Below, piece by piece: positions 11,388 through 33,452 of a DNA stretch of 40,897 bases. A program made the position numbers and the translations under genes. This DNA comes from Anaerolineales bacterium (GTDB lineage Bacteria; Chloroflexota; Anaerolineae; Anaerolineales; RBG-16-64-43). Each line of letters starts with the position of its first letter. Within the stretch, counting starts at the first letter, position 1. A model generated the notes under the pieces. The model worked only from the letters and a program-made list of their open reading frames with translations, did not search any database and was not told the DNA's origin. Location: the NCBI GenBank assembly GCA_016932475.1, contig JAFGCU010000085.1:1-40897 (forward strand), in the 5' to 3' direction.

Positions 11388-11389
11388 TG

Positions 11390-15740: not shown

Positions 15741-16352
15741 TTATGGCCGCCGGAGTTTTGGCAGATATCTTCCCGTCGACTGTTGGTACTGCCGGTAGGC
15801 TTGACCGTACATCTTCAACAGTTTCTGCTCTTCCTCCAAGGTATGGCCGTACACCGCAACGCAGGTGTAGGCCAACATGGCCAGCGTGATGAGGTTGGGG
15901 ATGATCAGGAAACAACCCAGCCCGACGGCAAAGAACGCCATGTATCCGGGGTGACGGATGTACCGGTACACCCCGGTGGTGACAAGCTTGGCTTCTCCCC
16001 CCGAGGCAAGCGCGGCGCGGATGGATTTTCCGATCGAAACGGTGAACAGAATATTCATGAGGAACGCAAAACACATCAGGGCCGCCGCGGCAAGCTTGAC
16101 CGCCGCATGGTCCAGAAAGGAAAATTTCCACGCCCAATCGGCGCTATTGTAGTGGAAGAAGTAAACCAGGATGACCAGAGTCCATCCCAGGAAGGCCAGG
16201 CCGAAGAACGGAGCCCACCGGGCTTGGATGCCGTATCTGGCCCGGGTGGATCGCTCGTGTTTTTCTTCGACCTTGCCGTAGGTCAGAAGGTAATAGCCCC
16301 AAAAGGCGGTAATCCATATCAGCAGAAAGACTTGCGTGTAATCCATTCGCAT
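15741..16352 (-). CDS. ICMT/PEMT-type membrane methyltransferase 1
   Basis: A 203-aa integral-membrane protein of the isoprenylcysteine/phospholipid methyltransferase superfamily, expected to use SAM. It has hydrophobic segments near the N-terminus, around residues 45-65 and 80-100, and a pair after the signature. The SAM/catalytic C-terminal signature is TTGVYRYIRHPGYMAFF, then EEEQKLLKMYGQAYRQY and GRYLP, complete for the family. The start is placed at ATG 16352, eight bases after AAAGGA; ATG 16370 is an alternative. It is the last gene of the minus-strand methyltransferase array, separated by about 120 bp from the preceding gene. Bacterial members act on lipids, thiols (methanethiol S-methyltransferase MddA) or unknown small molecules; the substrate here is unknown. 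Confidence 0.85.
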   Translation of the reverse strand: MRMDYTQVFLLIWITAFWGYYLLTYGKVEEKHERSTRARYGIQARWAPFFGLAFLGWTLVILVYFFHYNSADWAWKFSFLDHAAVKLAAAALMCFAFLMNILFTVSIGKSIRAALASGGEAKLVTTGVYRYIRHPGYMAFFAVGLGCFLIIPNLITLAMLAYTCVAVYGHTLEEEQKLLKMYGQAYRQYQQSTGRYLPKLRRP

Positions 16353-16469
16353 GCGTAAATCCTTTCCCATAGGGAGATGATGTCGTTCCGTACGGCGCGA
16401 CGGCCGTCTTGCGCCGTACGGACGCCCGGGCAGTCCCGGCGAAACCAGGCATGCCGATAATCGCGGTCA

Positions 16470-17240
16470 TTATTTCTTTCCATACAGGATGCCGATCTCG
16501 CCGACCATAAACGGCAGTTTTAGCCATTTGGGTATGAAATCCAAGTTGTTCGTTTGCGCCAACGCGGCGCTTTCCACCCCATGGGCTTTAACGGCGGCGA
16601 GCAGATCGTCCGGTTCGCCGTATATTTGCTTGACGAGAAACAAGTCCTGAAAAGCAAATACCCCGCCTTTCTTCACCACCCTCAGCGCTTCTTTGACCAA
16701 GTCTCTTTTATTCTTCACGCCGGCGACCTCATGAAACACAAAATTGCTTACGACGGCGTCGAATCTCCCGTCGGGGTACGGCAACTTGGCGGCGCTGGCC
16801 TTCTGGAAGGTCGCGCGGTCGGACACGCCTTCCAGCGCCGCATTTTCCTCGCATACCTTTTGGGAATAATCCCATGCGTTGCCCCAATAATCCATCCCGA
16901 TGACCTTGGCGTTTTTATATTTCTTCGCCATTTCAATCGCGAGAGGGCCGTTGCCGCATCCGATATCCAGCGCTTCTCCGTTCCCATCCCATTTCAAGTA
17001 GTCCAAGACCAAACCCCGGATCCTGGCCTGCAGGTTTCCGCCCCGTGGCGAAAACTGGTATCGCGCATAGGCAAAATAGAAAAAGCATAGGATAAAAAAC
17101 AGCGCAACTATGACAAGAATCGGCGCCCAGAAGGACGCCCCGCCAAACACAACCCCGAGGATGCCGGATATATACAACAGCTTATTCGATACCCAGTTCC
17201 CATAGGCCGGTTTCCGGTTGATGGATTTTCTCATTTTCAT
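16470..17240 (-). CDS. Membrane-tethered class I SAM methyltransferase A
   Basis: A 256-aa protein with two N-terminal transmembrane segments (about 21-38 and 40-59) and a cytoplasmic Rossmann methyltransferase domain. SAM motif I is LDIGCGNGPL at 91-100. An acidic residue at the end of strand 2 (GMDYWG) follows, then the strand-4 region FDAVVSNFVFHEV and a post-strand helix/turn LRVVKKGGVFAFQDLF. It aligns without gaps through motif I with the next upstream gene (motif I at the same residue numbers; shared WDYS, FDAVVSNFVFH, KKGG.F.FQDLF), so the two are tandem paralogues. GGAG lies five bases before ATG 17240. A lipid-soluble substrate is plausible because of the anchor, but unknown. Confidence 0.9.
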   Translation of the reverse strand: MKMRKSINRKPAYGNWVSNKLLYISGILGVVFGGASFWAPILVIVALFFILCFFYFAYARYQFSPRGGNLQARIRGLVLDYLKWDGNGEALDIGCGNGPLAIEMAKKYKNAKVIGMDYWGNAWDYSQKVCEENAALEGVSDRATFQKASAAKLPYPDGRFDAVVSNFVFHEVAGVKNKRDLVKEALRVVKKGGVFAFQDLFLVKQIYGEPDDLLAAVKAHGVESAALAQTNNLDFIPKWLKLPFMVGEIGILYGKK

Positions 17241-17373
17241 GATTTCTCCTCTTTTCGGAAGATAGCACTCTGAAATTTTTCATCCGCCGCCGCATCGCGA
17301 TGCCGGCTGGATGATCCCCTTGGATCCCGTGGCCGATCCGGTGTCCGGTTCCGGCCGGGGGCAGGCCCCGGTT

Positions 17374-18138
17374 TCATTTGGTTCCAAACAGCACGCCGCT
17401 GTTGCCGGCGATATGGTTGATCCGGAGCAGGGGCGGGATCTTGACGTAATCCGAGCTCTTCACAAAATGGACTTCCTGCAAGCCCCAGGATTTCAACTCT
17501 TTTTCCAGGTTCTCCGGAGCCTGGTAAAACTCCGAGTTGAATAAATCCTGGAACGAGAAAGCTCCGCCCTTTTTCAGGATCCGCAACGCTTCCATAAGCA
17601 ATACTCTCCGGTCCGGAACGTTCACGGCGTGAAACACGAAATTGCTGACCACGGCGTCGAAATATCCGTTTGCGAAGGGGATGCCCTCTGCGCCGGCCGG
17701 GATAAAACGGACGCGGTTGCCGACGCTCTCCAGCACGCCATTGGCGACGCAGGAATCCCGTGAGTAATCCCAAGGTTTGCCCCACAAGTCGGTCCCTGTC
17801 ACCTCGGAAGCGGGAAACCGCTTCGCCAGCTCGATGGCCAACGCGCCGTTGCCGGTGCCGATATCCAGGGCTTTGCCGCCGCCGTCCCACGGCAGTCTGT
17901 CCAATACCAGCCGGGTGAATTCCCGCTGCAGCCTGCCATGATCTTTCCCCAGCAAGCAGGAAGCGGATGCCAGGTAGAGAAAGAAAGCCGCGCACAAGGC
18001 GGAGAGAGGATAAAGAATCCACTTCCACGCTGGATGACCCAGTAACAGCCCTGTCAGCAAGAGCAGCATGGAGGCTGTGAGAGACCAGAACAGAACGCTA
18101 TGCGGCATCCAGTTGCCGTAATTCGTTTTCCCGGACAT
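17374..18138 (-). CDS. Membrane-tethered class I SAM methyltransferase B
   Basis: A 254-aa paralogue of the following gene: N-terminal GNWMPH, two transmembrane segments (about 15-34 and 40-60), then a Rossmann domain with motif I LDIGTGNGAL at 91-100. It continues with TGTDLWGKPWDYS, FDAVVSNFVFHAV and LKKGGAFSFQDLF, and ends in the same GNSGVLFGTK-type tail as the neighbour (GEIGILYGKK). The start at 18138 is fixed by GGAG five bases upstream (leader GGAGCAACCATG, shared with two array genes further on). The frame is open upstream but has no Shine-Dalgarno sequence there. It lies 133 bp before its paralogue. Substrate is unknown; duplication suggests related but separate substrates. Confidence 0.9.
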   Translation of the reverse strand: MSGKTNYGNWMPHSVLFWSLTASMLLLLTGLLLGHPAWKWILYPLSALCAAFFLYLASASCLLGKDHGRLQREFTRLVLDRLPWDGGGKALDIGTGNGALAIELAKRFPASEVTGTDLWGKPWDYSRDSCVANGVLESVGNRVRFIPAGAEGIPFANGYFDAVVSNFVFHAVNVPDRRVLLMEALRILKKGGAFSFQDLFNSEFYQAPENLEKELKSWGLQEVHFVKSSDYVKIPPLLRINHIAGNSGVLFGTK

Positions 18139-18259
18139 GGTTGCTCCAAATGTCAGACGTATCGCGCAGGATGTGCCGCGCGGACTACTGGCCGGGAATC
18201 TCCGCAACCCATTGAGCCGCGAGGATTTGCCGGTTGGATTGGAGAGACGGATCGATTTT

Positions 18260-19084
18260 TTATTCGCCCTTCTTTCCCAGGCCTAGATGAATCATGTATT
18301 GCGCCTTCAGCAAATCCGAGACGAGCCCCATCATGCGCGTCCCGAGGGGGAGCCGCTTTTCTCCAAAGTAAAAAATCGTATTCAAGATCCTGAACCTTGG
18401 GTCCCAGGAGAGGATGTCTTCCGTCCGGTTGAGCTCCCAACGCAGGAAAGACCTCTCATCCATCCCCGCCCGCCGGACCACCATGCGGTTGGCGGTTTTC
18501 ACCCCAATCGGGGAGCAGGCGTCAAAGAGCATTTCGCCGCCGGGAAATTCATCCGCCAGAGTCTGGAAGAAGTTCCGGATCTCTTCCTCCCGGAAATAAT
18601 AGAAGACCCCCGCGGCGACAAACAGGACGTTCTCCGCGGGTTGTATTTCCTTCCGCCAGCCTTCTTCCAGAAAAGAGGCGGAAAGGAACTTCCGCCGACC
18701 GCTCTCCGGGATGAATTTCCTCCGCAATGCGATGACATCGGGCAGGTCCAGATCGAACCAATGGAGTTGCCCGTTATCGATCCGGTCGAAGGTGGTATCC
18801 AGTCCGCAGCCGATGTTAACGACGGCCGCCTGCGGATGTTTTTCGAGGAACCGCGTGACCACGCGGTCGGTGCAGATGCTGCGCATGATCCATCCGGCCT
18901 TGCTCAGTTCGCTGATGTTCCCCGCGACGGCGGAAAAATTGAAATCCACCCGGTCGAGGATTTCCAGCGCTTTTTTGTCCACCAAGAGCGGGTCGGCCTT
19001 GCGGGATTCGCAGGCCCGGCCCCACAGGGGCAGAAACAGGGTTTTGGGAACGTCGCCCAATTCCACTTTGATTTTGTCGGACAT
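18260..19084 (-). CDS. Leucine-carboxyl-methyltransferase-like (PF04072) SAM methyltransferase 1
   Basis: A 274-aa soluble protein of the LCMT/Tcmp family, whose members O-methylate carboxyl groups of proteins or small metabolites. Family motifs seen are VVNIGCGLDTTFDRI (SAM site, about 88-102), WFDLDLPDVIALRRKFI (the acidic residue binding the ribose) and LFVAAGVFYYFREEEI. The ATG at 19084 has AGAGGAAAG directly upstream; a longer frame to 19123 has no such signal. It lies between tether-type methyltransferase B and the reductase-like gene. There is 121 bp downstream and 182 bp upstream without genes, so it may have its own promoter, though I could not identify one. Substrate is unknown. Confidence 0.85.
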   Translation of the reverse strand: MSDKIKVELGDVPKTLFLPLWGRACESRKADPLLVDKKALEILDRVDFNFSAVAGNISELSKAGWIMRSICTDRVVTRFLEKHPQAAVVNIGCGLDTTFDRIDNGQLHWFDLDLPDVIALRRKFIPESGRRKFLSASFLEEGWRKEIQPAENVLFVAAGVFYYFREEEIRNFFQTLADEFPGGEMLFDACSPIGVKTANRMVVRRAGMDERSFLRWELNRTEDILSWDPRFRILNTIFYFGEKRLPLGTRMMGLVSDLLKAQYMIHLGLGKKGE

Positions 19085-19266
19085 TCTTTCCTCTTTTCTT
19101 CCGGAGTCCAGTCGATTCCACATCCCAGGTTGGGAGGAGGATGTCGCCGGGTTCAGCCGGTTGTTAAGACTTCTCCGCGCACACCATCTGTTCGATTTCC
19201 GTCACCGGCAAGGCGCACCCGGCCGGTTGCAGGTGCCGCGCGGCGTGCTCCCGGCCGGATGTCGGC

Positions 19267-20331
19267 TTAAAGCAGCCACAGGCCGAGAACGATGAGCGCT
19301 CCGATGACCAAAATCCCCGCGACGACATACAGGAACCGCCAATCGAGCGGGATCTCCGCGCTGCCTTCCGGCAAGGCAGGCGTATCCGGATCGAAATATT
19401 TCTTCAACCCGTCGATGACCGGCGTCGGAATGCCCGCGCGTTCGATCAGCGCATCGAACTCCCCCGCCAGGTGGCGGATTTCGTCCTGCGCGGCGTCCGC
19501 GTGCTCTAGCGTCGCCGTGCGCATCCGCGGATGGGGAAGCAATTTCTGCAGGTACCAGACCAGGATCGGCTCTGGCATCCACTCCATCTGCCGGATGGAC
19601 GACGGGACGACGGGATACCCCAGTTTTCGCACCACGCCGAATCCTTCACGGATGGCGCGGACCGCCAGGACGACCGCGTCGCGGGTGCGGCCCATGCGCA
19701 CGTTATCGCGACCGGCGGCGCGCATCGCCGGCGCAAGCGAGGGCATCAGCAGCGCGACGTGGGTCTTGAGCCAGGCGTCCATGTCGGTGCGGATCTCGCC
19801 GGCGAATCCCGGCATGGAATCGAAGACGGCGGCGATCTCACGGGTGCGGGGTTGAACGCTGCCATCCGCCTCGCCAATCGGGATCTTGACCGGCTTGCCC
19901 GGCCGGCCGCCGAAGAGATAGTGGATCACGTGACCGCGGCGGTACCCGGCCGCCATCGGGAAGCCCATCATCACCCGTTCCGCCCCGAGCGCCTGCACCA
20001 GCGCATCCGGTCCGGCGGCGTTGTTCATCAGGAACAGCACGTTGGGCGTGTGTTTGTTCGCGGCCAGCACCGGCAGGATCTCCAGCGCGCGGTTCTTGCG
20101 CATGACAACCATCACCAGGTCGAAGGCGTCTCCGGGTTCGAGCCGTTCGACGATGGCCGGGCGGGCAACGGTTTCCTTCCCGGTTTCCGTATCCATCAGA
20201 ACGACCCCATGCTCGCGCAGATCCGTCAGCCGCTGCCCGCGCGCCAGCAGGGATACGTCATTCCCGGCTTCGTGCAGGCGGGCGGCAAGAAAGCTGCCCA
20301 GAGGGCCTGCGCCATAGACCAGTATTTTCAT
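19267..20331 (-). CDS. Ketopantoate-reductase-like (PanE/ApbA) protein with C-terminal membrane anchor
   Basis: A 354-aa protein whose first 300 residues are a 2-dehydropantoate 2-reductase-family fold. The NADP-binding GAGPLG is at 7-12 (MKILVYGAGPLGSFLAARL), followed by SLLARG. The central MDAWLKTHVALLMPSLA carries the helix with the conserved Lys of the family. It exceeds PanE by about 50 residues, and the extra part ends in a strongly hydrophobic helix (about 331-353, FLYVVAGILVIGALIVLGLW), which classical PanE lacks. It is therefore probably tail-anchored, and a role other than pantothenate synthesis is likely. GGAGGG lies before ATG 20331. Its start overlaps the stop of the upstream membrane protein by ATGA, so the two are co-translated. 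Confidence 0.82.
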   Translation of the reverse strand: MKILVYGAGPLGSFLAARLHEAGNDVSLLARGQRLTDLREHGVVLMDTETGKETVARPAIVERLEPGDAFDLVMVVMRKNRALEILPVLAANKHTPNVLFLMNNAAGPDALVQALGAERVMMGFPMAAGYRRGHVIHYLFGGRPGKPVKIPIGEADGSVQPRTREIAAVFDSMPGFAGEIRTDMDAWLKTHVALLMPSLAPAMRAAGRDNVRMGRTRDAVVLAVRAIREGFGVVRKLGYPVVPSSIRQMEWMPEPILVWYLQKLLPHPRMRTATLEHADAAQDEIRHLAGEFDALIERAGIPTPVIDGLKKYFDPDTPALPEGSAEIPLDWRFLYVVAGILVIGALIVLGLWLL

Positions 20332-20882
20332 GATGACCCTCCTTTTTTCGAATCCGTCTGCTTCATTTCCACGCCGGCGGATTGCCGCTGTTCTTTGAGG
20401 GGCACCCACAGGAGCAAACACAAGCTAGCCAGGTAAATGACGGCAAAGGATGTGTGGAGCGGGAGATTGATCGAAAGGTAGTATTGCGTCATGGCCGCAT
20501 CCGCGCCGCCGGAGAGGACCGCTTCCTCCGCTTTGTTCAGGAGGGACAGGAAAAAGATGTTGCCGACCCAGAAGGTCGAGAGCCCCGCCACGACGGCGAT
20601 GATCCGGTCTCTTTTCAGGATGCACGCCAGAACTGTCCAGGCAACACCGGACAGGAAGGCAAGATACAACGGGGTGTTATAGAGAACACCCGGTGTATGG
20701 GTCTCGCGGAACACGGTGAACGTTTGGTGCAACAGACCCAGGTTGTCCGATTCGATATACCAGTTGAAGAACCGGCCCAGCATGATCGAATGGGAAACCA
20801 TAAACCCGGCCAGGATGCCCGTCAGGACCGTCGTGGCAAACCAAAAGATCCAAAACAATTTCTGCAATAAAAACTTGTTCAT
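20328..20882 (-). CDS. Four-helix membrane protein of unknown function
   Basis: A 184-aa integral-membrane protein with predicted helices near residues 9-30, 70-88, 93-113 and 140-160. Arrangement and size recall DUF1772/anthrone-oxygenase-like proteins (GFMVSHSIMLGRFFNWY near helix 1; a long polar loop; N-S-x-N-L-P style motif SINLPLHTSF before helix 4). That assignment is tentative. The C-terminal 25 residues are polar. Its last four bases overlap the start of the reductase-like gene (ATGA), implying a joint function at the membrane. It follows LCMT-like methyltransferase 2 by 30 bp on the same strand, so it belongs to the array transcript. Confidence 0.75.
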   Translation of the reverse strand: MNKFLLQKLFWIFWFATTVLTGILAGFMVSHSIMLGRFFNWYIESDNLGLLHQTFTVFRETHTPGVLYNTPLYLAFLSGVAWTVLACILKRDRIIAVVAGLSTFWVGNIFFLSLLNKAEEAVLSGGADAAMTQYYLSINLPLHTSFAVIYLASLCLLLWVPLKEQRQSAGVEMKQTDSKKGGSS

Positions 20883-20912
20883 GTTCCTGCGCCTCGTTTC
20901 AATTTGATTTGT

Positions 20913-21800
20913 TTATTTCATTCCCGCGATACTGATGCAGTGCGTACCGTTGATCCGTCCGAAAGTCGTCCCATCCTCCGCCATGAGGTATTTTTTCTGC
21001 AACTGATCCGGCGTGTAATGCGCGAGAAGCTGAAACCCGCGTTGGGCCAGAAACGCCTTTACTTCGCCGTCTTCCAGGCCGAAGGTCCAGCCCTCGCCCG
21101 CGCGGGCGACGGTTTCGAAGATCTCCCGTTCCCCGTGGAAGCGGTTCTCGCGGCGCAAAACCGATGCGTAGATGTAATCGAACACCACCCGGCTGCCCGG
21201 CGCGGCGTTTTGGCGGACGAATTCCAGGGTCCGGTCCAATGCCTGCGCGGTTAGATACATGGTGATGCCTTCCATAAGGAAGAGTGATTTCCGGCCGAAT
21301 TGAAAACCGGCTTTCGCCAGCGCGGCGGCAAGGTCTTCCCTATCGAAGTTGATCCGCACGAAGGCCAATTCGTCCGGGATGGGGATGCGCTTCCGGCGCA
21401 GGATCTCCACTTTCGGATCCAGCGTGGCCGGGACGTCCAATTCGAAGATCCGCGTGCCCCGGTTGCGGTCCGCGAAGCGCAGCGCGCGGGTGTCGAACCC
21501 GGCGCCCAGCAGAATGATTTGATCGAAACGTGCGTCGATCGCTTCGACGAAGGCCGCATCCAGTTCCTTCGTGCGCGCCAGGACGTACTCGTAGATTCCA
21601 GCCGGGAAGAGCCGGTCCATGAACAATTTTCTCATCCATGGGATACGGACGACGACCCGGGCGGCGGCGGGAAGAATGCTCTCCGCGATATGGTCCGGAC
21701 CTCGAAAGCGCGGATCCTTTTCGCGAGCGGCGCAAGCGCGGCTGAAGCAGGTGTACCCCGCCGTTTGCGAGGCTTTGGTCTCAATTCGTTTTACCGCCAT
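20913..21800 (-). CDS. Leucine-carboxyl-methyltransferase-like (PF04072) SAM methyltransferase 2
   Basis: A 295-aa soluble protein of the same family as LCMT-like methyltransferase 1 but closer to the TIGR00027 subgroup. The SAM motif is IILLGAGFDTRALRF (about 95-109), then IFELDVPATLDPKVEILRR and LFLMEGITMYL. The N-terminal SQTAGYTCFSRACAAREKD is typical for that subgroup. It shares the general fold with gene 18260-19084 but they are not close paralogues. GGGAGACGGGA precedes the ATG. It lies 30 bp before the four-helix membrane protein. In actinobacteria such enzymes methylate carboxylates in secondary products; the substrate here is unknown. Confidence 0.88.
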   Translation of the reverse strand: MAVKRIETKASQTAGYTCFSRACAAREKDPRFRGPDHIAESILPAAARVVVRIPWMRKLFMDRLFPAGIYEYVLARTKELDAAFVEAIDARFDQIILLGAGFDTRALRFADRNRGTRIFELDVPATLDPKVEILRRKRIPIPDELAFVRINFDREDLAAALAKAGFQFGRKSLFLMEGITMYLTAQALDRTLEFVRQNAAPGSRVVFDYIYASVLRRENRFHGEREIFETVARAGEGWTFGLEDGEVKAFLAQRGFQLLAHYTPDQLQKKYLMAEDGTTFGRINGTHCISIAGMK

Positions 21801-21889
21801 TCCCGTCTCCCTTATTCCTTATCCGGCGGGCGAGATTGCGGTCCCACCGATCCGCCGTCCGCTGCAGATCGGGGGCTGTACGAAGTTGG

Positions 21890-22783
21890 TCAGGATTGCG
21901 CCTGCAGGAAGCCATCGATCGCTGCCTGGTATTCAGCCTGGTCCGTTACCGACGTGGTGTGCCCACCCCCGCGGAAAAGCTTCCATTCCGCACGCGGATA
22001 CAGTTCCTTGAATGCGGTTCGCACCCGTTCCGGAGAAGCCGGGTCGTCCTCGGCCAGCACGAGCAGGATCTTCCCTCCCCAGCCGGCCAAATCCTCCGCC
22101 GTCCACGAGCGGCCGTAGAAATCCAAAGTGCGGTCCAGGATCCCCAGGAAATCAGCCTTGGCCAGGTGATGGTCCATGATCTCGCGGAACTGGGCGAGCA
22201 TCAGGAGCATCTCCGGGGAAGAAGCATCCGCCGGCATGAGTTTCCCGAGCATCCGTCCAAGAAGCGCGCGCAGCACCGCCGTCGGAAGCAGGGAAAGCAC
22301 CTTGAGCATCCGGCGCGTCGATTGGCCGCCGGTCGGATCGGGGACGGTGGTGTGCGAAAGGATCAGCGAGCGGGTGACGGCCGGGAAGCGGCGTACAAAC
22401 ACCTGCCCGACGAATCCGCCGTACGAGCCGCCCATCACGTGCGCGCGGCTGATCCCCTCGTGCTGGAGGATCGCCGCGATTCCATCGCTCAGTTCGTCCA
22501 TCGTCCGCACCGCCGGGTAGGCCGGGACAACGATGCGGTATCTCTCCCCGAAGTGGGCGATCGAATTCCAGCTGATATCCGGATGGGTCAGCGCGCCGGA
22601 AAGCATCAGCAGCGGTTCGACGCCGCCGGAGGAGATCAGGTACGGCCAATCGATCCCGCGGTAGCGGATGCTCCGGTAGGGATACGCATCGCAGAAATCC
22701 CGGAACTTCTGAATTACCTCGGATGGGACACCGGCGTAGAGCTTGGCGATTGTCGGATTGGTGAAATCTGCGAGATGGTGCAT
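21890..22783 (-). CDS. Alpha/beta hydrolase
   Basis: A 297-aa alpha/beta-hydrolase-fold enzyme. The nucleophile elbow is GGSYGG at 118-123 with Ser120. The acid is likely the Asp in VLAEDDPASPERV and the base the His in GGGHTTSV near the end, so the catalytic triad is complete. The start at 22783 has GGAGG five bases upstream; the longer frame extends into repeat DNA and is not used. There is no signal peptide. It is preceded by a CTTCGTG-type inverted repeat (22817-22879) that separates it from the next methyltransferase gene. Possible roles are hydrolysis of an ester or thioester made by its neighbours, but nothing in the sequence names the substrate. Confidence 0.88.
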   Translation of the reverse strand: MHHLADFTNPTIAKLYAGVPSEVIQKFRDFCDAYPYRSIRYRGIDWPYLISSGGVEPLLMLSGALTHPDISWNSIAHFGERYRIVVPAYPAVRTMDELSDGIAAILQHEGISRAHVMGGSYGGFVGQVFVRRFPAVTRSLILSHTTVPDPTGGQSTRRMLKVLSLLPTAVLRALLGRMLGKLMPADASSPEMLLMLAQFREIMDHHLAKADFLGILDRTLDFYGRSWTAEDLAGWGGKILLVLAEDDPASPERVRTAFKELYPRAEWKLFRGGGHTTSVTDQAEYQAAIDGFLQAQS

Positions 22784-22816
22784 GGCAACCTCCGGGATCT
22801 GGGTTCCTGATAGCCT

Positions 22817-22879
22817 TTCCTTCGTGTCTTTGTGTCTTCGTGGTATTACTTCCTTAACCACAAAGACACGAAGACACTA
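22817..22879. repeat. CTTCGTG-type dispersed inverted repeat
   Basis: CCTTCGTGTCTTTGTGTCTTCGTGG (left arm) faces AACCACAAAGACACGAAGACAC (right arm) around a spacer of about 10 bases. The arms share the words CTTCGTGTCTT and CACGAAG with the repeats at 9.05-9.49 kb. It lies between two array genes, so it would be transcribed as a hairpin within the mRNA. Confidence 0.8.
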
Positions 22880-22926
22880 AAAAAAATGCTTGGCCTGGAT
22901 GAATTGCTTTTTTTACTGTGCCGGAT

Positions 22927-23613
22927 TCACCAGACGCCCGGCAGCAAACGGAACGCTACGCGTCCGGCATACTCTCGATATCCATCCAACCCAGCTTGGA
23001 GGGCTCTATCCTCCCGCGCCGTGCGGAACGCAATGGCAATAACCGTAACCACCGCCGGGATGAACGCCCAGGCGGATTGCAGGACGAGCGGCGCCGCCAG
23101 GTCGAACACGATCGCGCCCAAATATCCCGGGTGGCGTAAAAACCGGTACGGCCCGGTGTCGCAGACGGTGTGCCCTTGTTCCTTGGCGATCCGGAACACG
23201 CCGTAGAAGAACCGGTTGGCCGCCATCGCCCAGATCGTCAGCGCCGCGCCCGCCAAAGCGACCACAATTCCAGCGATCTGCAGGGCAGGGGTGATTTCCG
23301 GCAACCACCCAAGCCGCAGATCCAGGCCGCCGACGATGCAAATTGCGGCCGGTCCGAAGAGCGCCATGGTGCCGGCAAGCACGCGGTCGAGATCTCGCTT
23401 CCCATTGGAAGCCCGCTCGGCCATCAACCCCGGGTTTTTTACCGACAGAATCGCGGCGGTGACGATCTGCCCGGCCGCGTTGATGGCAAGGAAAATCCAT
23501 CCCGCATCCCAATCCAGGCGTCCGGCGGAAAGGAATAAACACACCCAGAAAAATAATACAAAAAACGCCGTCTGCAATAAGTATCCAGCCATCCCGCGTT
23601 TGACTTCAGACAT
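22927..23613 (-). CDS. ICMT-type membrane methyltransferase 2
   Basis: A 228-aa polytopic membrane protein with hydrophobic segments near 12-30, 38-55, 80-100, 108-130 and 170-195. The family signature is TGPYRFLRHPGYLGA, followed by TAREDRALQAGLDGYREY and a C-terminal FRLLPGVW. Here the usual YG of the second motif is replaced by LDG, but the Glu and the R-H-P are kept. An earlier region with NRFFYG before the signature resembles the isoprenylcysteine carboxyl methyltransferase subgroup with an N-F-F motif. Its first eight bases overlap the end of the upstream methyltransferase gene, giving tight translational coupling. Substrate is unknown. Confidence 0.87.
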   Translation of the reverse strand: MSEVKRGMAGYLLQTAFFVLFFWVCLFLSAGRLDWDAGWIFLAINAAGQIVTAAILSVKNPGLMAERASNGKRDLDRVLAGTMALFGPAAICIVGGLDLRLGWLPEITPALQIAGIVVALAGAALTIWAMAANRFFYGVFRIAKEQGHTVCDTGPYRFLRHPGYLGAIVFDLAAPLVLQSAWAFIPAVVTVIAIAFRTAREDRALQAGLDGYREYAGRVAFRLLPGVW

Positions 23614-24262
23614 TTGAAGGCCTCTTCGAGAGGTATTTTTTCACGGCTGATCTACATCCGATATACCGGGCGGTTGCTTTGCGATAGCTCCGGTATTCCA
23701 CTCCGTATATTTTTTCCAGGTGTTTCTCCTCCTGAAGTATTTGATAGTGCATTCCAAGCGCGACCAGAATCGCGGCGGCCAGAAAGAACAAGGTGCCCAG
23801 GATCAGGAAAGTCCCGAGGAAGAACAGATCCAGCGAGAGGTAGATGGGATTCCGGGAAATCGCGAAAATCCCGCCGGTGGCCAGCTTGCCGGGCGTCTGC
23901 GTGTCCATCCCGACCCGCCAGTCGCTCCCGAAGGAAACCAGGGCCCAGGCGAATAGCGCTATGCTTGCCGGCAGAAGCGCCGCCCCGAGAAGTTTCCAGG
24001 GAGCGGAATCGATCACCATCCGGTCCAAGGGCGGAGGAAAAATCCGAAACGGTGCTTGCAGGGCGGCCAATATGGTTTCCGCAAGCCAGATCAGCAGCCA
24101 AAGGAAGAAACAAATCTCCAGCGCGGCGGGGAGACCGGATTTGCCGGCGCCCAGGACGAATGGACGAACTCCCTGCGTGATCCGCAGGTGGATCGTCCGG
24201 CCGATCGTCAGGGCGATGTAGACGGCGATTCCGATCAACAGGATGCAATCGAAAAAATCCAT
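23606..24262 (-). CDS. ICMT-type membrane methyltransferase 3 (SRNP variant)
   Basis: A 218-aa polytopic membrane protein. The signature reads TGGIFAISRNPIYLSL, with Asn in the place of the His of RHP, then LQEEKHLEKIYGVEYRSY and ARYIG. The Asn variant also occurs in array members 7 and 10 and is common in bacterial PEMT-like proteins. N-terminal helices are near 4-20 and 47-68. The last 18 residues are basic and extend beyond the usual end. AAGGA is nine bases before the ATG. The gene overlaps the next by 8 bp. Substrate is unknown. Confidence 0.87.
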   Translation of the reverse strand: MDFFDCILLIGIAVYIALTIGRTIHLRITQGVRPFVLGAGKSGLPAALEICFFLWLLIWLAETILAALQAPFRIFPPPLDRMVIDSAPWKLLGAALLPASIALFAWALVSFGSDWRVGMDTQTPGKLATGGIFAISRNPIYLSLDLFFLGTFLILGTLFFLAAAILVALGMHYQILQEEKHLEKIYGVEYRSYRKATARYIGCRSAVKKYLSKRPSNV

Positions 24263-24308
24263 CGCAGTTATTCCTTCCGGGCGTACTCGTTCTTTCCGCG
24301 GGCGGGGT

Positions 24309-24983: not shown

Positions 24984-24993
24984 GGCGGATGCC

Positions 24994-25554
24994 TTAGAAG
25001 AACAGAAAATACCGCGGCACGCGCTGCAGGTACTGCCGGTACGGTTCGCCGTATTGCGCCAGGCAGGCTTCCTCCTCCGCCAGAATCCCCCAATGTCCGA
25101 AGAGGTGGCCGAGCGCCCACAGGATCACCGCCGCCCAGGAACCGATTGCGATCGAAGCGCCCAGCAGCACCAACCCCGCACCCACCGCCTGCGGGTGGCG
25201 CGAGATCCGGTACAGCCCGCGCGTCACCGGTTGATCGGGCGGGGTGCGCGCAAAATCGATGACGGATGCGATCACCCCGGCCAGCCCGAGGACGGCCATC
25301 ACGGCGCCGATGACCAAAACCGGCGTGCCGATTTTCAGCGGGGTGAATACGATCAGAATCAATCCGCCGAGCGAGATCAGCTTGCCGATAACGGTGAAGA
25401 TCCTCTGTTTGCGGCTCCACTGCGACCGGTCCCACAGCCGCGCGACGACCGGTTTGGAAAAAGCAAGAAACAGGATGGCATCCGCCAGCACCAGCATCGC
25501 CAGCGCGATCCAGCCATTCAACCAGCCAAGGCGTAATTCTGGAAAGAGTTCCAT
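24994..25554 (-). CDS. ICMT-type membrane methyltransferase 4
   Basis: A 186-aa polytopic membrane protein with helices near 14-33, 55-72, 78-97 and 125-150. The signature is TRGLYRISRHPQAVGA, then AEEEACLAQYGEPYRQY and PRYFLFF. The aromatic Y after HP, present in most members, is replaced by QAV. The gene ends ten bases before class I methyltransferase C. GGA is about ten bases upstream of the ATG, a weak ribosome site. Substrate is unknown. Confidence 0.86.
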   Translation of the reverse strand: MELFPELRLGWLNGWIALAMLVLADAILFLAFSKPVVARLWDRSQWSRKQRIFTVIGKLISLGGLILIVFTPLKIGTPVLVIGAVMAVLGLAGVIASVIDFARTPPDQPVTRGLYRISRHPQAVGAGLVLLGASIAIGSWAAVILWALGHLFGHWGILAEEEACLAQYGEPYRQYLQRVPRYFLFF

Positions 25555-25579
25555 GGGGAGTTTTCCTTGAATGAAAATT

Positions 25580-26269
25580 TCACCAAATATATGGGATCAG
25601 CTTTTTGGTTGTGCGGCAGTACGCATCCCACTCCGGACCGAATTCCTTGCGCATCAAGGCTTCCTCGTCACGGATGCGAAACAGTACGACCGCCATCGCG
25701 AGCAGGGTCATGCCCAACCCGAGCCAGGAGCGGAAGAGCAGGGATTGTCCGATCCCCATCACGGCAATCCCGAGGTAACGCGGATGCCGCACGAGCCGGT
25801 AGGCGCCGCGGGTGATCAGATGGTGGCCTTCCTGCAGCGTCACTTCCTGGCTGTACAACCGGCCGAGAGAAAGCCCGGACCAGAAGATCAGCCCGAGGCC
25901 GAGCGCAGCAAGCAGCAACCCGGACCAGCGCAGGCCGGGATTTTCAGCCATCACCAGCAGGTTGCGCCGGTCGGTGAAGGGGATCAGGACCAGGCCGATG
26001 AACAGCAGGAGCGTTACGGCGATGCGCACGATGCGCTGGCGCGGCACGAATTTCTCGGTTTTCCCGATCCCGCCATGGAAGCTCTCCGGCAGGAGGATCA
26101 TCTGGCAGGCGGCGACCAGCCCAAACCCGGCGATGCTGACCTCGTAGAGGAGCCGTTGCGGCATCGCGAAGAAACCGGCGATGTCGTCGAAGCCCCAGCC
26201 GAGAACGGGCAATCCCGCGTACAAGATGACCGTCCATAGAAATGAAGCAAACCCTTTGAGGTATTTCAT
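25580..26269 (-). CDS. ICMT-type membrane methyltransferase 5
   Basis: A 229-aa polytopic membrane protein with hydrophobic segments near 5-30, 45-58, 80-95 and 110-133. The signature is TRGAYRLVRHPRYLGIAV, then RDEEALMRKEFGPEWDAY and a C-terminal KKLIPYIW. The FG-x-E-W form of the second motif and the IPYIW end distinguish it from its neighbours. AGGAG is eight bases before ATG 26269. It is followed after 25 bp by array member 4 and preceded by a 28-bp palindrome that overlaps the end of array member 6. Confidence 0.87.
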   Translation of the reverse strand: MKYLKGFASFLWTVILYAGLPVLGWGFDDIAGFFAMPQRLLYEVSIAGFGLVAACQMILLPESFHGGIGKTEKFVPRQRIVRIAVTLLLFIGLVLIPFTDRRNLLVMAENPGLRWSGLLLAALGLGLIFWSGLSLGRLYSQEVTLQEGHHLITRGAYRLVRHPRYLGIAVMGIGQSLLFRSWLGLGMTLLAMAVVLFRIRDEEALMRKEFGPEWDAYCRTTKKLIPYIW

Positions 26270-26288
26270 GTTTTTCTCCTGATTTCAC

Positions 26289-26316
26289 ACCTGACAGGTC
26301 TTAAGACCTGTCAGGT
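26289..26316. repeat. Perfect 28-bp palindrome overlapping a gene end
   Basis: The sequence ACCTGACAGGTC-TTAA-GACCTGTCAGGT is a perfect palindrome. It includes the last codons and the TAA stop of the upstream array gene. The half GACCTGTCAGGT recurs exactly at 10088-10099 in the cupin terminator. There is no T run on either strand, so it is not a standard terminator. Confidence 0.85.
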
Positions 26317-26927
26317 CCCATCGCCCGCGGCAGAAAGCGCCCGGTGCGTTCCCGGTAGGCGCGGTATTCCTCTCCAAACTGTCCGATCATCATTCGCTCT
26401 TCCTTCACCGTTACGCGGTAGAAGAAGGGAAGCGTCAGCGCCGCCAGCAGCAGGAGCGGCCAGGCGGCGGAGATCAGCGCCAGGCTGAAAAAGCACACCA
26501 TCAGCGCCGAATACATCGGATGCCGGATCCACCGGTATGGTCCGGCGGTAATCAAGGCATGCGCTTTGCGCAACTGCAGGACGGTGGACCAGTACTCGCG
26601 CAGCGTGTAATGGACCCAGATCAGGTAGAGCAGGCCGAATGCCCCCAACACCACGCCCAAACCACGCAGCCAAACCGGCAGCGGAAGGATCAGCCAATCC
26701 GGCTCTCCCGGGATGAAGGCGTACAGCCCGACCAAAGCCAGCAGGGCAAGGAATCCCAGCGGTCGGAGCAGGATGCTCCATGCGCCTTCCCGCTTGACGG
26801 CCTCCTTTTCGACCGACCAACTGCTTTGGCCCGCCCGGCGCACCATCCAGCCGAAGAATACCCGGATCGCTAAAAGCGCGATGAATTGCGCAAAAAAGAT
26901 TATTTTAAGAACCTGTGCGGAACCCAT
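26301..26927 (-). CDS. ICMT-type membrane methyltransferase 6
   Basis: A 208-aa polytopic membrane protein with helices near 6-27, 50-66, 75-105 and 140-165. The signature is TAGPYRWIRHPMYSAL, then VKEERMMIGQFGEEYRAY and TGRFLPRAMGP, a full match to the family. It shares the leader GGAGCAAC(G)ATG with two other array genes. Its last codons and stop lie inside the 28-bp palindrome, so the final residues GPDRS are contributed by that element. A gap of 83 bp precedes it. Confidence 0.88.
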   Translation of the reverse strand: MGSAQVLKIIFFAQFIALLAIRVFFGWMVRRAGQSSWSVEKEAVKREGAWSILLRPLGFLALLALVGLYAFIPGEPDWLILPLPVWLRGLGVVLGAFGLLYLIWVHYTLREYWSTVLQLRKAHALITAGPYRWIRHPMYSALMVCFFSLALISAAWPLLLLAALTLPFFYRVTVKEERMMIGQFGEEYRAYRERTGRFLPRAMGPDRS

Positions 26928-27010
26928 CGTTGCTCCATTTCAATTTCTTTGAGATTTTTGACAAGACGCCGCCCGGGAATGCAACGGGATCCTCCAGGCT
27001 GCCTGTATGG

Positions 27011-27580
27011 TTATGCCGTCTTCCCTTGCGCCGACATGTTATTCCCGGATCGCCGCCCGCCACCCGGCCGGATCATCGACAGGCCCGCCAGAATCAGACC
27101 GCCGCCAATAAAAGAGATCCACGCCTCCCAACCCAGGAAGCATTCCGCGAAGTGGAACCAGTAATCCTTGTATCCCGGCAGACCTTCCGTCCCGGGGATC
27201 ACCACGAAGGCGGGCTGGATCGTCACAAAGATGAGCCAGTCGAGGATCAACAGGTCCCATACGGCGAAGAAAAACAGGAGCAGCGCACTGTGCGTAAATG
27301 CCTGGAGGAAGGATAGATTTCCTCCGTTATCCCGCCGCAGCCGGCTGTTCGACCAAAGGATCATCCCGAACAGGATGACCGCGGACAGCGCGGCGGAGAT
27401 TACTTTCAAGCCTGCCTGCGCCCCGGCGGAACCCACGGCCGCCTGGATATCCGGCGGATAATCGCTGACCCACGTCACCGGATCAATATAGATGGAACCG
27501 TATATGACGATGGAGAGCAGCGCGCACATCATGGTTCCGTCGATGAGAATGCGCCGGAAAGATGTTTTCCATGCCGTCAT
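27011..27580 (-). CDS. Membrane protein of unknown function inside the array
   Basis: A 189-aa protein with about four transmembrane segments (near 15-32, 55-75, 93-120 and 150-170). It has a DxLxLDWLIF motif in helix 3 and a YKDYWFHFAE stretch between helices 3 and 4. I do not recognise the family. The polar C-terminus (about 171-189) is Gly/Arg rich. Its ATG overlaps the stop of array member 7 by four bases (ATGA), so it is co-translated with it and probably acts with it. The acidic and aromatic residues of the third loop could form a substrate or metal site, but this is speculation. Confidence 0.75.
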   Translation of the reverse strand: MTAWKTSFRRILIDGTMMCALLSIVIYGSIYIDPVTWVSDYPPDIQAAVGSAGAQAGLKVISAALSAVILFGMILWSNSRLRRDNGGNLSFLQAFTHSALLLFFFAVWDLLILDWLIFVTIQPAFVVIPGTEGLPGYKDYWFHFAECFLGWEAWISFIGGGLILAGLSMIRPGGGRRSGNNMSAQGKTA

Positions 27581-28167
27581 GCTGATTTGCCTTTCCGCTC
27601 CTTATTGAGAATCAGATATCGCCCGACCTTCTGCCGATACGCATCGAACGGCGCGCCGTGCTTCTCGGACAGGAAGCGTTCCTCCGCAAGCACAATCCGG
27701 TGATGGACGTATATCCCCGCCAGCCCGCAGGCGATATTCAGCGTATGGGGCACCGCCATCCAGGAGGCCAGCGTGATCAGATAAAACCCCAAATACATCG
27801 GATTCCGGCTGACCCGGAAAATCCCCGTCGTGTACAGGATATTGGATTCCTCGGAAAGGCCGAACCGGCTGTCGGCTCCCAGATGCAGGTACGAAAAAAA
27901 GAGCAGCGGCACCGCCGCTAGCAGCATCGCCGCCGAGACATATTCGAGCGCCGCGGGGACGGAGAAGGGGATTACTCCCACCCCCAGGGCCTGCGCGAAG
28001 AGAAAGCCCCACGAGATGCCCATGGCAAGCTTTCCCGCCGCGAACCACAACGGATGCATGGGGAGTCTGCCCAGCCGCTGGTTTCCCGCGAGCTTCTGGA
28101 TGGCATTGAAGCTCAGCATGAGGATTGCGAGTGCGATGGAGATGATCAAGATCGCGATGCGCGCCAT
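27577..28167 (-). CDS. ICMT-type membrane methyltransferase 7 (SRNP variant)
   Basis: A 196-aa polytopic membrane protein with helices near 4-22, 40-60, 72-95 and 125-150. The signature is TTGIFRVSRNPMYLGFYL, then LAEERFLSEKHGAPFDAY and GRYLIL. Asn replaces His in RHP, as in members 3 and 10. An LHLGADSRFGL motif before the signature is typical of the subgroup with a short N-terminal half. The start at 28167 follows AAAAGGA by nine bases; the longer frame upstream overlaps another gene. It is overlapped by the next gene through ATGA. Substrate is unknown. Confidence 0.87.
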   Translation of the reverse strand: MARIAILIISIALAILMLSFNAIQKLAGNQRLGRLPMHPLWFAAGKLAMGISWGFLFAQALGVGVIPFSVPAALEYVSAAMLLAAVPLLFFSYLHLGADSRFGLSEESNILYTTGIFRVSRNPMYLGFYLITLASWMAVPHTLNIACGLAGIYVHHRIVLAEERFLSEKHGAPFDAYRQKVGRYLILNKERKGKSA

Positions 28168-28186
28168 GAGAACATTTCCTTTTTTA

Positions 28187-28813
28187 TCATCCAGGGATGG
28201 ACGGCTTGACTGCCACCCGGCAGCTAACCTTTTTACCCAGCGCGAACGGCTGGATTTCATGCCGCATGATGATGAGGCCGGCTTCCTCAAGATGCGAGGG
28301 ATAGAGCGTATAGTCCCCCTTGGCCAGCCTGCGCTGCAGGGCGTTGGCCGCCCGCGGGCCGAATTCGGCGGAAATGTAGCGCCCGCCCGGCGCGAGCACC
28401 CGCGCCACCTCGCCGACGGCCCGGCGCTTCTCTTCGAGATCGAGATGGTGGAACAGGATGCTGGTGATCACCACGTTGAAAAATGCATCCGGGTAGGGCA
28501 GCGCGGTGATCGAACCGACTCGAAAGGCCACCGCCAAGCCCCCCCCCTCCGCGCTCTTGCGTGCGGCGGGGATCATCTTGGGCGAGATGTCGACTCCGTA
28601 CATCGCGCAGCCTGGATACCGCTGCGCGATGCGCAGCGCCGTCAACCCCGTACCGCAGCCTGCATCGAGCACTCGCTCGCCGTTTTTCGGAGCGGCCAGC
28701 TCCAGCACGCGCCCGCGGAACGCCTCGTGCGCCTTGCCGATGAATGCGCCGAACAGCCGGTCGTAGACGGGGGTCAGCGCGTCGGTGAAATCCGTAAAGC
28801 GGTGCCGGTACAT
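28187..28813 (-). CDS. UbiE/Erg6-type class I SAM methyltransferase D
   Basis: A 208-aa soluble methyltransferase. Motif I is VLDAGCGTGLTAL (48-60), motif II region YGVDISPKMI, the strand-4 region FNVVITSILFHHL and the turn LAPGGRYISAEFG. The layout matches the UbiE/COQ5 and Erg6 group, which methylates quinone precursors, lipids and natural products. The ATG has GAGG ten bases upstream (leader GAGGCAACAACCATG). It lies 11 bp after array member 8 and 19 bp before member 7, in the same transcript. A quinone or lipid substrate is a guess from subgroup resemblance only. Confidence 0.9.
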   Translation of the reverse strand: MYRHRFTDFTDALTPVYDRLFGAFIGKAHEAFRGRVLELAAPKNGERVLDAGCGTGLTALRIAQRYPGCAMYGVDISPKMIPAARKSAEGGGLAVAFRVGSITALPYPDAFFNVVITSILFHHLDLEEKRRAVGEVARVLAPGGRYISAEFGPRAANALQRRLAKGDYTLYPSHLEEAGLIIMRHEIQPFALGKKVSCRVAVKPSIPG

Positions 28814-28824
28814 GGTTGTTGCCT

Positions 28825-29454
28825 CTACAACAGTTGCGACGCAAGCGGGATGGCGGCCAGGACCGCCGCCAGCAGGATCCACACCCAAAGCGGGCCGAAC
28901 ATCCGGGTCCGCTTCCGGTATTCCTCGTATTGGACGGCGAACCGCACCCCGACGTCGCAGCGTTCCTCCAGGAAAGCCTCCGCGGCGTTCAGCAGAAAGA
29001 CCGCCGGGATCATCAGCAGGCCGTCCCACGTTCCCAGGACGAGCGCCAGCCCCAGGCTCCACCAGATGATGGCGGCATAGATCGGGTGGCGGAAATATCC
29101 ATACAACCCGGAGGTCAACAACCCCGCTTTGACATCCTCTCCGCCCAGCGCCTTTCTCTGCCGGACCGCGGCGAACCAGATGTAGACGGATATTCCGATA
29201 AGGATCAACCCAATCGCGGAGTATCCGATCCGCACCGCCGCTTGCGAGAAGAAGGTCGGCTCCGGAAAGACGTCCGGGTCCGAAGGCAGCCCGGCCAGGA
29301 GGAAGCAAAGCAGGCAATACACGATCACCACAGCCAGGTTGGCCGTCCTGTTTGCAAACAGCCCGGGTAATTTTTTCCGGTTGGACATGAAAAAACCCAT
29401 CGCGGCCACTATCAGAACAAACACCGCCAGAAGAATTAATCGCACGCCCCACAC
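28825..29454 (-). CDS. ICMT-type membrane methyltransferase 8
   Basis: A 209-aa polytopic membrane protein read from a GTG start with GGAGG five bases upstream. Helices lie near 5-22, 35-53, 75-95, 130-160 and 190-207. The signature is TSGLYGYFRHPIYAAIIWW, then AFLEERCDVGVRFAVQYEEY. Here the second motif has an insertion before the Y-x-x-Y, and the end RMFGPLW is followed by an extra C-terminal helix, absent from the other members. It sits 11 bp before methyltransferase D. The open frame extends upstream of the GTG but lacks a better ribosome site. Confidence 0.84.
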   Translation of the reverse strand: MWGVRLILLAVFVLIVAAMGFFMSNRKKLPGLFANRTANLAVVIVYCLLCFLLAGLPSDPDVFPEPTFFSQAAVRIGYSAIGLILIGISVYIWFAAVRQRKALGGEDVKAGLLTSGLYGYFRHPIYAAIIWWSLGLALVLGTWDGLLMIPAVFLLNAAEAFLEERCDVGVRFAVQYEEYRKRTRMFGPLWVWILLAAVLAAIPLASQLL

Positions 29455-29530
29455 ATCAACCTCCGATTGGTTTATTAATTTTTTTTCCGGGGACGCGCGT
29501 GCCGTGCGGCGCCCGCGTCGAACGAATATC

Positions 29531-30136
29531 CTACACTCCCGGCCGCATCCGCGGCAGCAATCTTCCGGTCCGCTGCCGGTAGGCGGTGTACTCACCGCCG
29601 AATAGATCCATCAGGATCTGCTCCTCCTTCGGCATGCGCATCCAGGCCATGACGGAAAAGCCGATGAAGGGGACGAATGCCAGCACCCAATTGCCGGCCG
29701 TCAATCCCCCGCCGAGGTACAGGAGCAGGTAGGCCAGGTAGATCGGATGCCGGATGAGGCGGTACGGCCCGGATTGCACGAGCGCGTGCCTTTCCTTCGA
29801 GCCGACAAACGAAGAGAAGGAAAGCCCGAGGTGGTAGTGCGCCGTTCCCAGAACGACGATACCCGCGGCCAGCAGAACCACGCCGCCCCAGCGTACGATC
29901 ATCGGAAACGGCAGGGCATAGGCGAAGGCGAAAGCGCCGGGAAAGAATATGTATTCGGCTCCGAATACGAGGTTGATGATCGCCGCGGTCCCGCCGAACG
30001 CCAGGCTGACCGCATTTTCCCTGAAAGTGAACTTCGAGGAATCGCGGCTGATTTTCGTTTGGAAATAGGCGCGGATGACGCCGATGAAGACGACGGACAG
30101 GATCAGGATCAGCCGGAAAATCGAATCGGTATTCAT
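29531..30136 (-). CDS. ICMT-type membrane methyltransferase 9
   Basis: A 201-aa polytopic membrane protein with helices near 6-25, 45-75, 82-100 and 130-160. The signature is QSGPYRLIRHPIYLAYLL, then PKEEQILMDLFGGEYTAY and TGRLLPRM, a full match. A YHLGLSFSS segment before the signature resembles the corresponding part of PEMT-like proteins. The leader GGAGCAACCATG is the same as that of methyltransferase B and nearly that of member 6. It follows member 10 by 16 bp. Substrate is unknown. Confidence 0.88.
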   Translation of the reverse strand: MNTDSIFRLILILSVVFIGVIRAYFQTKISRDSSKFTFRENAVSLAFGGTAAIINLVFGAEYIFFPGAFAFAYALPFPMIVRWGGVVLLAAGIVVLGTAHYHLGLSFSSFVGSKERHALVQSGPYRLIRHPIYLAYLLLYLGGGLTAGNWVLAFVPFIGFSVMAWMRMPKEEQILMDLFGGEYTAYRQRTGRLLPRMRPGV

Positions 30137-30152
30137 GGTTGCTCCCGAAAAA

Positions 30153-30599
30153 TTAAATCCAGCGGCGGACGCGGGACCGGTAATCCCGCCAGGCCGGCCC
30201 GAACCGGTCCGCCAGCATCTGTTCTTCGACGGCGATGTACAGCCGGTTGACCAGCAGGACGAACGCCGGCACAACGGCCCACGGTGTCAGCGTCCCCAGC
30301 AAGGCGGCGACTCCGGCCAGGGTCAGGGCGAATCCCAGGTACATCGGGTTGCGGCTGAGGCGGTAGACGCCGCCGGTGATCAGCGCCGAAGACACTTCAA
30401 ACGGCTTGACCGTCGTTCCGGCCTTGTGGAAGGCGCCGTCGGCGGTCAGGTTGACCGCGATGCCGCATCCCAGCGGGATCAGCCCGAGAAGGTTCCACGG
30501 CGGGGGGATGAGCGTCTTCAGCGGCAGGAGGAAATGCCACACCAGCATCACCGCCAGGCAGATCAGGGTGACGCCCATCGGCAAGATTTGGTTTTTCAC
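30153..30599 (-). CDS. ICMT-type membrane methyltransferase 10 (short, SRNP variant)
   Basis: The shortest member, 148 aa, with helices near 6-24, 31-50 and 90-112. The signature is TGGVYRLSRNPMYLGFAL, then AVEEQMLADRFGPAWRDY and VRRWI. It corresponds to the minimal PEMT/ICMT core, like many small isoprenylcysteine carboxyl methyltransferase homologues. The start is a GTG with GGAG eight bases upstream, and it overlaps the stop of the preceding CPBP-like gene (GTGA), so the two are translationally coupled. Array members 3, 7 and 10 share the Asn variant and may form a subgroup. Confidence 0.85.
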   Translation of the reverse strand: MKNQILPMGVTLICLAVMLVWHFLLPLKTLIPPPWNLLGLIPLGCGIAVNLTADGAFHKAGTTVKPFEVSSALITGGVYRLSRNPMYLGFALTLAGVAALLGTLTPWAVVPAFVLLVNRLYIAVEEQMLADRFGPAWRDYRSRVRRWI

Positions 30600-33294: not shown

Positions 33295-33324
33295 TATCTA
33301 AATGATAGTGATTATCAATATCAA
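33295..33324 (-). promoter_or_regulatory. fur-CDF promoter with embedded Fur box
   Basis: On the minus strand TTGATA (33324-33319) and TAGATA (33300-33295) are spaced by 18 bases. The Fur box occupies exactly this spacer: AATGATAGTGATTATCAA at 33301-33318, identical to 10624-10641. Fur binding here would block RNA polymerase, so the operon should be autorepressed by metal-loaded Fur. Confidence 0.85.
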
Positions 33325-33452
33325 ATAATAGACCGCCTTGGACGGGATGTCAAGGGCCAAATGGGAGCTTTCGGGCGGACGGGGAGGCGGAGACGGGAAG
33401 CTCGAGCTTCTTTCTGATCCGGTGATGCGGGAGCGGTTTATCGCGGCTGTTT

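Follow-up and report, generated by a model that had tools for sequence, protein, structure and literature searches.

The stretch of DNA studied here, called the window in the following, comprises the 40,897 nucleotides of contig JAFGCU010000085.1 (assembly GCA_016932475.1) from an Anaerolineales bacterium of the phylum Chloroflexota, and our subject is an array of sixteen methyltransferase genes at 15741-30599. As stated in the original prediction, which was made from the letters alone, ten integral membrane methyltransferases of the ICMT/PEMT type (M01 to M10) and six class I methyltransferases (C1 to C6) share about 15 kb of the minus strand, on which all genes called across this span are encoded. 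All sixteen are complete open frames, the ten membrane enzymes all exceed the curated cut-off of PF04191, and the absence of a scaffold synthase was likewise confirmed among the annotated genes of the run. The gene overlaps reported at 23606/23613, 27577/27580 and 30596/30599 are real. The limits given for the locus, however, cut it at both ends: the real run extends from the Fur/TetR genes at 34 kb to a FeoB gene at 12.8 kb, in the order TetR, Fur, CDF, array, AbrB-like protein, FeoB, all on one strand.

The locus begins with a TetR-family regulator (33453-34070; 78% identical in a sister species), followed by a sigma-70-like promoter (33325-33353), a predicted Fur box (33304-33322) and the gene for a Fur-family metalloregulator (32750-33202), which heads the putative operon. 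A CDF cation efflux protein (31428-32753), which carries additional N- and C-terminal domains, overlaps the Fur gene by 4 bp, and a membrane protein with a weak Rce1/CPBP likeness (30596-31417; E 0.0015, under the cut-off) leads into the array. Here the first genes are M10 (30153-30599), a short PEMT-type enzyme, M09 (29531-30136; ICMT/PEMT-type), M08 (28825-29454), the most divergent PEMT-type member, the class I enzyme C6 (28187-28813), with relatives of 67-77% at the loci L009, L018 and L032, and the PEMT-type M07 (27577-28167), with a 58% relative in L018. They are followed by a DUF4199-like four-helix membrane protein (27011-27580), whose nearest relatives all lie in methyltransferase arrays and whose structure model is of low confidence (pLDDT 70) and gave no structural match of value. 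The central part consists of the ICMT-type enzymes M06 (26301-26927), for which the nearest solved structure is the ICMT of M. acetivorans (4a2n, E 1e-18), and M05 (25580-26269), the PEMT-type M04 (24994-25554), with relatives of 62-65% in L021 and L026, the class I enzyme C5 (24309-24983), the PEMT-type M03 (23606-24262) and the ICMT-type M02 (22927-23613), whose family is present at more of the loci fetched than any other array family. In the last part an alpha/beta hydrolase (21890-22783; relatives of 46-54% in L016, L026 and L040), C4 (20913-21800; TIGR00027 over the cut-off), a four-helix membrane protein of no family (20328-20882) and a ketopantoate-reductase-like (ApbA) enzyme (19267-20331) precede C3 (18260-19084), C2 (17374-18138), C1 (16470-17240) and the ICMT-type M01 (15741-16352). 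The run is completed by a small protein which looks AbrB-like by eye but belongs to no Pfam family (15280-15678) and by the ferrous iron transporter FeoB (12823-15189; TIGR00437, E 4e-155, over the cut-off), in which a FeoA-like N-terminus can be seen by eye.

In total the array thus holds four class I enzymes of the Methyltransf_11/25 type (C1, C2, C5, C6) and two of the PF04072/LCM type (C3, C4), and it encloses or borders on five genes of other kinds (ApbA, the hydrolase, two membrane proteins and the weakly CPBP/Rce1-like gene). The intergenic gaps from Fur to M02 range from -8 to 83 bp with four overlaps, so that the tight packing claimed for the array holds for its 5' part, but not after M02, where gaps of 89-182 bp appear. 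MacB and ABC ATPase genes adjoin the locus, and the search for RNA elements found one tRNA and nothing else. In L009, L012, L028 and L040, too, the AbrB-like protein is kept (57-73% identity), with FeoB, ApbA or methyltransferases next to it.

The genome (3.65 Mb in 129 contigs) has 17 PF04191 genes, ten of which are found within these 15 kb. The binomial bound for such a clustering is about 3e-14, and chance can therefore be excluded. When the ten membrane enzymes are aligned and residues are numbered as in M06, the invariant columns besides M1 are G129, R135, P137, E176 and Y191, and the R, P, E and final Y of the signature motifs are constant in all ten. The claim that the catalytic residues are retained in every copy is correct for these core motifs, but M04 reads RHPQAV and lacks the tyrosine of the R-(H/N)-P-x-Y motif; in M02 the EE pair reads ED. 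Even the most divergent member, M08, is modelled as an ICMT fold (pLDDT 83): its best structure matches are 5v7p, 5vg9 and 4a2n with a probability of 1.00, at modest scores (E 1e-3 to 2e-2, TM 0.41-0.44). Sterol and steroid reductases, which have the same fold, were also matched in the family and structure searches. Such related folds, the sterol reductases among them, use NADPH. Because the fold is shared, the R(H/N)PxY motif alone does not prove the use of S-adenosylmethionine (SAM), although the membrane enzymes of the array are likely to use it. Membrane association is not restricted to the PF04191 proteins. C1 and C2 carry two N-terminal membrane helices each and C5 also has an N-terminal helix, therefore 13 of the 16 methyltransferases are membrane proteins, and the ApbA-like enzyme possesses a C-terminal membrane anchor.

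The region between the TetR and Fur genes contains a single block that is conserved between the window and the sister genome (G001), and this block holds both the promoter and the Fur box. The promoter, TTGACA-17-TATTAT, is the lone 11/12 match in the region, all others reaching 9/12. Immediately after its -10 element follows the predicted Fur box GATATTGATAATCACTATC, which matches the Fur consensus at 17 of 19 positions, while none is expected in shuffled sequence. A scan of the whole genome found three distinct Fur-box sites with at most 3 mismatches (reversed control: 0). Besides the site at the array, one precedes a Dps-family gene in the same window (10621-10639, plus strand) and one lies ahead of a further Fur gene with a ZupT-type transporter gene behind it. 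The predicted sites are thus specific to metal genes genome-wide. In the sister genome a box with 3 mismatches is found at the equivalent place (L009 1830-1848), and the promoter is conserved there, too.

Two irregular frames flank the second Fur box of the window. The Dps-family gene behind it (10778-11329, plus strand) has an in-frame TAA at codon 18, so that either the gene is broken and starts later, or the assembly is wrong at this point. Just upstream of the box, the frame 10307-10600 (plus strand) encodes a Fur C-terminal domain without the N-terminal DNA-binding half (HPHLICTRC...CPECRK, by eye) and is likely a remnant.

The sister genome carries TetR, Fur, CDF, the array, the AbrB-like gene and FeoB in the same order on one contig (C7, locus L009), and most of the shared proteins are 60-85% identical. 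Seven genes of the window are absent from it (M03, M07, M08, C1, C2, the membrane protein at 20328 and the Rce1-like gene) and four are extra (one additional copy each of M04 and C4, plus two class I enzymes). Most shared array genes have a ratio of non-synonymous to synonymous substitutions (dN/dS) of 0.12-0.24, compared with 0.19 for FeoB, 0.30 for the DUF4199-like protein and 0.64 for M10, whose counterpart in the sister is shortened or decayed (104 aa). Judged from these two genomes the array is under purifying selection yet with gene turnover, and we therefore regard it as kept by selection while its content changes. The sister also shows the DUF4199-like protein and M02 as one continuous frame of 404 aa (L009 9350-10564), suggesting that both work together.

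The original prediction described the array as the amplification of one fold. A tree of 68 membrane enzymes does not support this, because each of the ten array enzymes occupies a clade of its own. For eight of these clades close relatives are known from elsewhere, namely from the sister, from other families of the class, or from both. M03 and M10 form long branches whose placement is unsure. The label "window" changes 7 times on the tree compared with 5.6 times for shuffled labels. The array is therefore a collection of old families, and a recent tandem amplification of the membrane enzymes can be ruled out; the sole apparent tandem pair within the window is C1/C2. An integron or gene-cassette array was considered as well and rejected, since no integron or attC-like repeats were found between the genes and the repeats that are seen represent coding homology or short chance matches.

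Within the class Anaerolineae, 310 of 396 genomes contain PF04191 genes. At most 11 candidates were scored per genome, so that high counts per genome are lower bounds. Following up 13 of the richest genomes revealed sets of three or four PF04191 genes in several families, with partner genes known from the window: FeoB, M02, hydrolase, C5 and ApbA in L016, M04, M02, hydrolase and ApbA in L026, C6, M07 and a DUF4199 protein in L018, and M06, M02 and M04 in L021. Three further loci (L031, L040, L054) were added by scanning GTDB genomes with the ApbA protein, among them L031 with a run of Fur, metallo-beta-lactamase, C5, ApbA, ApbA, DUF4199, DtxR and FeoA. The statement that such enzymes normally occur singly therefore holds only in part. 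It applies to the same-family genus g2, in which 10 and 14 PF04191 genes are found, mostly alone on their contigs, but not to the sets of three or four which recur with the same partners in other families. In the same way, scattered single genes in neighbouring genomes, which the original prediction had named as an observation that would speak against it, are seen in g2, but the sister carries the same array.

FeoB lies beside M02, M05, C5 or ApbA in L016, L012 and L035. Of 26 genomes searched for this association, 24 encode FeoB, with 35 FeoB genes in total. A PEMT (PF04191) gene lies within 10 kb of FeoB in 12 of these 35 cases, where 1.7 are expected (sevenfold, P 3e-7), and without the genus of the window the numbers are 9 versus 1.4 (P 2e-5). 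Other sets adjoin, by eye from the sequences, DtxR, ZnuABC, ArsR with heavy-metal ATPases, or CopC. Several loci show arrangements of their own. In L022, L025, L010, L020 and L011, from another family of the Anaerolineae, M06/M09-type pairs or triplets stand beside DtxR, ZnuABC, ArsR and heavy-metal ATPases, giving the enzyme family another metal context, distinct from the first. L018, a contig of 6.6 kb, consists almost entirely of a methyltransferase array and encodes two fusions, DUF4199 with ATC-hydrolase (2674-3915) and PEMT with metallo-beta-lactamase (4511-5674). L054 combines in one run (1122-13902) four LCM-type frames, two class I enzymes, one M08 relative, ApbA, MacB and metallo-beta-lactamase. 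Using ApbA as a unique marker of such arrays is justified only in part, because members of the family are also found away from arrays and in other phyla: relatives of 41-54% identity (L041-L062) exist without an array in Nitriliruptoraceae, Spirochaetales, Bathyarchaeota, Bacillales and others, which makes this a widely spread reductase family.

Taken together, we consider it on balance probable that the locus is a Fur-controlled membrane methylation operon serving metal homeostasis. The Fur-family regulator and the Fur-box promoter (33304-33353) would drive the co-transcription of Fur, CDF, the Rce1-like gene, the sixteen methyltransferases with the hydrolase, reductase and membrane proteins, the AbrB-like gene and FeoB. 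When metal-bound Fur leaves the box, at low iron or, if the regulator is PerR-like, in the presence of peroxide, the array would be expressed, and its membrane-seated enzymes would move methyl groups from SAM to amphiphilic acceptors which partition into the bilayer. The array would have grown through the gathering of enzymes from several old methyltransferase families, the probable reason being that several acceptors are covered by them jointly. In a more specific version, 13 membrane-bound or membrane-anchored methyltransferases under Fur control would be induced by iron starvation and would chemically remodel molecules soluble in the membrane (lipids, quinones or a lipophilic metal carrier), which would allow the cell to keep or import iron; in this detailed form the proposal seems rather unlikely.

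Several observations weigh against a control by Fur and a role in metal homeostasis. The Fur-family protein is clearly assigned to PF01475 (E 3e-34), but as none of the Fur/PerR NCBIfam models passes its cut-off, Fur, PerR and Zur are not told apart. The one further Fur-box-like site of the sister sits inside a coding frame and is probably there by chance, therefore not every match is functional, and at the other arrays no Fur boxes were found except a site with 4 mismatches in L012. A TetR gene stands directly upstream of the promoter, and the gaps of 89-182 bp 3' of M02 leave room for more promoters, so that the later genes and FeoB may be off the transcript. Finally, of the PEMT sets elsewhere that were chosen by clustering alone, roughly one half show no metal gene within view (L015, L017, L018, L019, L021, L023, L024, L026), and the metal link is therefore to be regarded as strong, but not universal.

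The defence or detoxification repertoire suggested originally survives as the main rival in the form of a TetR-controlled system, in which varied methyltransferases, hydrolases, reductases (ApbA, SDR) and MacB export would cap and remove lipophilic toxins or foreign signals. We regard it as possible, but not as likely. It would explain the conserved TetR gene at the head of the locus, MacB and the ABC ATPase next door and the MacB-type permeases beside the arrays of L017, L019 and L054, as well as the hydrolase and reductase partners and the methyltransferase-lactamase and DUF4199-ATC-hydrolase fusions of L018. Fast gene turnover between sister species and the collecting of separate old families, as in resistance repertoires, would also fit. 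However, the Fur-box promoter lies downstream of TetR and ahead of the operon, the 40 kb searched on the sister contig contain no counterpart of MacB, PadR or SDR, and the class-wide association with FeoB is not predicted by detoxification, whereas the Fur gene, Fur box, cation exporter and FeoB, none of which the original prediction had noticed, point to metal homeostasis. Each explanation could hold in part if cells meet iron stress and toxic redox-active compounds at the same time. Anti-phage defence was rejected: among ten proteins tried against the PADLOC models, the sole match was the mad2 methyltransferase domain, hit by three class I enzymes, and nothing beyond this generic domain was matched.

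The co-travelling of the ApbA-like reductase, the hydrolase and the methyltransferases in several families could also reflect the dedicated biosynthesis of one multiply methylated lipid, quinone or metallophore with one step per enzyme, and iron control would suit a metallophore. We judge this improbable, as a scaffold synthase is missing among the annotated genes, other arrays hold parts of the set alone, and sixteen methylations of one product would be unusual; moreover, the sister does without seven of the genes and has four others, although most shared proteins are 60-85% identical. An accretion without joint function, by a permissive site beside FeoB that gathers methyltransferase genes, appears least probable of all. 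Old unrelated families, gene turnover and the decay of M10 in the sister agree with it, but most shared genes are under purifying selection, every gene lies on one strand, integron-like repeats were not found, and the same partner families return at unlinked arrays in other taxonomic families.

The curated cut-offs were missed for protein-S-isoprenylcysteine O-methyltransferase (NF040696, cut-off 160 bits; best 115.8 bits, M06), the methanethiol S-methyltransferase MddA (NF045656, cut-off 270 bits; best 34.3 bits), the Leptospira lipid A methyltransferase LmtA (TIGR04571, cut-off 325 bits; best 36.5 bits) and the arsenite methyltransferase ArsM (NF008823, cut-off 263 bits; best 74.1 bits, C5). 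Methylation of arsenic or methanethiol was rejected on these grounds. A CAAX-type processing pair of the Rce1-like protein and M10 was also rejected, because the Rce1 match stays under its cut-off, the gene is absent from the sister and the ICMT equivalog is missed.

For a Fur-controlled methylation operon, parallels exist in the literature. ICMT-type genes in metal operons are already known but unexplained, and the array described here is larger than any other found in this analysis or in the literature seen through an open-access search. In the same open-access papers we found no description of an array of this size or of its control by Fur, and nothing relevant came up on ICMT genes in connection with Fur or with iron limitation. 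If the more specific version given above is correct, such an iron-starvation methylation programme would be a metal-homeostasis system not described so far, with reduced forms across the Anaerolineae and perhaps, in the shape of ICMT/class I pairs, in Bacteroidetes.

A likeness in context is seen with CzcN and NccN, integral membrane ICMT-type proteins of metal-resistance operons, whose genes are accompanied by those for cation efflux and by metal regulators (PMC7563307; PMC12029693). They differ in being present as one copy per operon with RND-type efflux, whereas in the array ten membrane enzymes and six of class I stand together with Fur, CDF and FeoB. In Alteromonas ICMT genes follow CopA (PMC8478169), so that here, too, an ICMT-type gene belongs to a metal-handling set, but it is a single gene with a copper ATPase and plastocyanin-type neighbours. 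ICMT-family and class I genes which rise jointly at low iron are known from P. gingivalis, where PG1461-PG1469 were up 2-27-fold, PG1868 3.7-fold and PG1870 15.8-fold in iron-starved cells; in P. intermedia at low iron an ICMT gene was up 12-fold and a class I methyltransferase 64-fold (PMC10434189). The P. gingivalis loci are smaller than the array, and they belong to Bacteroidetes. The array enzymes share the fold and the R-H-P-x-Y/E-E core with the M. acetivorans ICMT (4a2n) and the eukaryotic ICMT (5v7p, 5vg9). The latter acts on prenylated proteins, while the scores of the array enzymes fall well short of the cut-off for the isoprenylcysteine equivalog. RhlM, described as the first characterised bacterial ICMT, methylates rhamnolipids and is, in a comparison of more than 14,000 family proteins, the only one for which a bacterial methyl acceptor can be named (PMC11069360). 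It resembles the array enzymes as a member of the same family and acts on an amphiphile in the membrane, but it is a single gene in a rhamnolipid cluster without a metal link. For a family with one named bacterial acceptor, ten ICMT families under a predicted Fur box beside FeoB offer a testable direction, and CzcN/NccN, the copper loci and iron-starved Porphyromonas could be joined with the array in one hypothesis, namely that many bacterial ICMT-type enzymes serve metal homeostasis.

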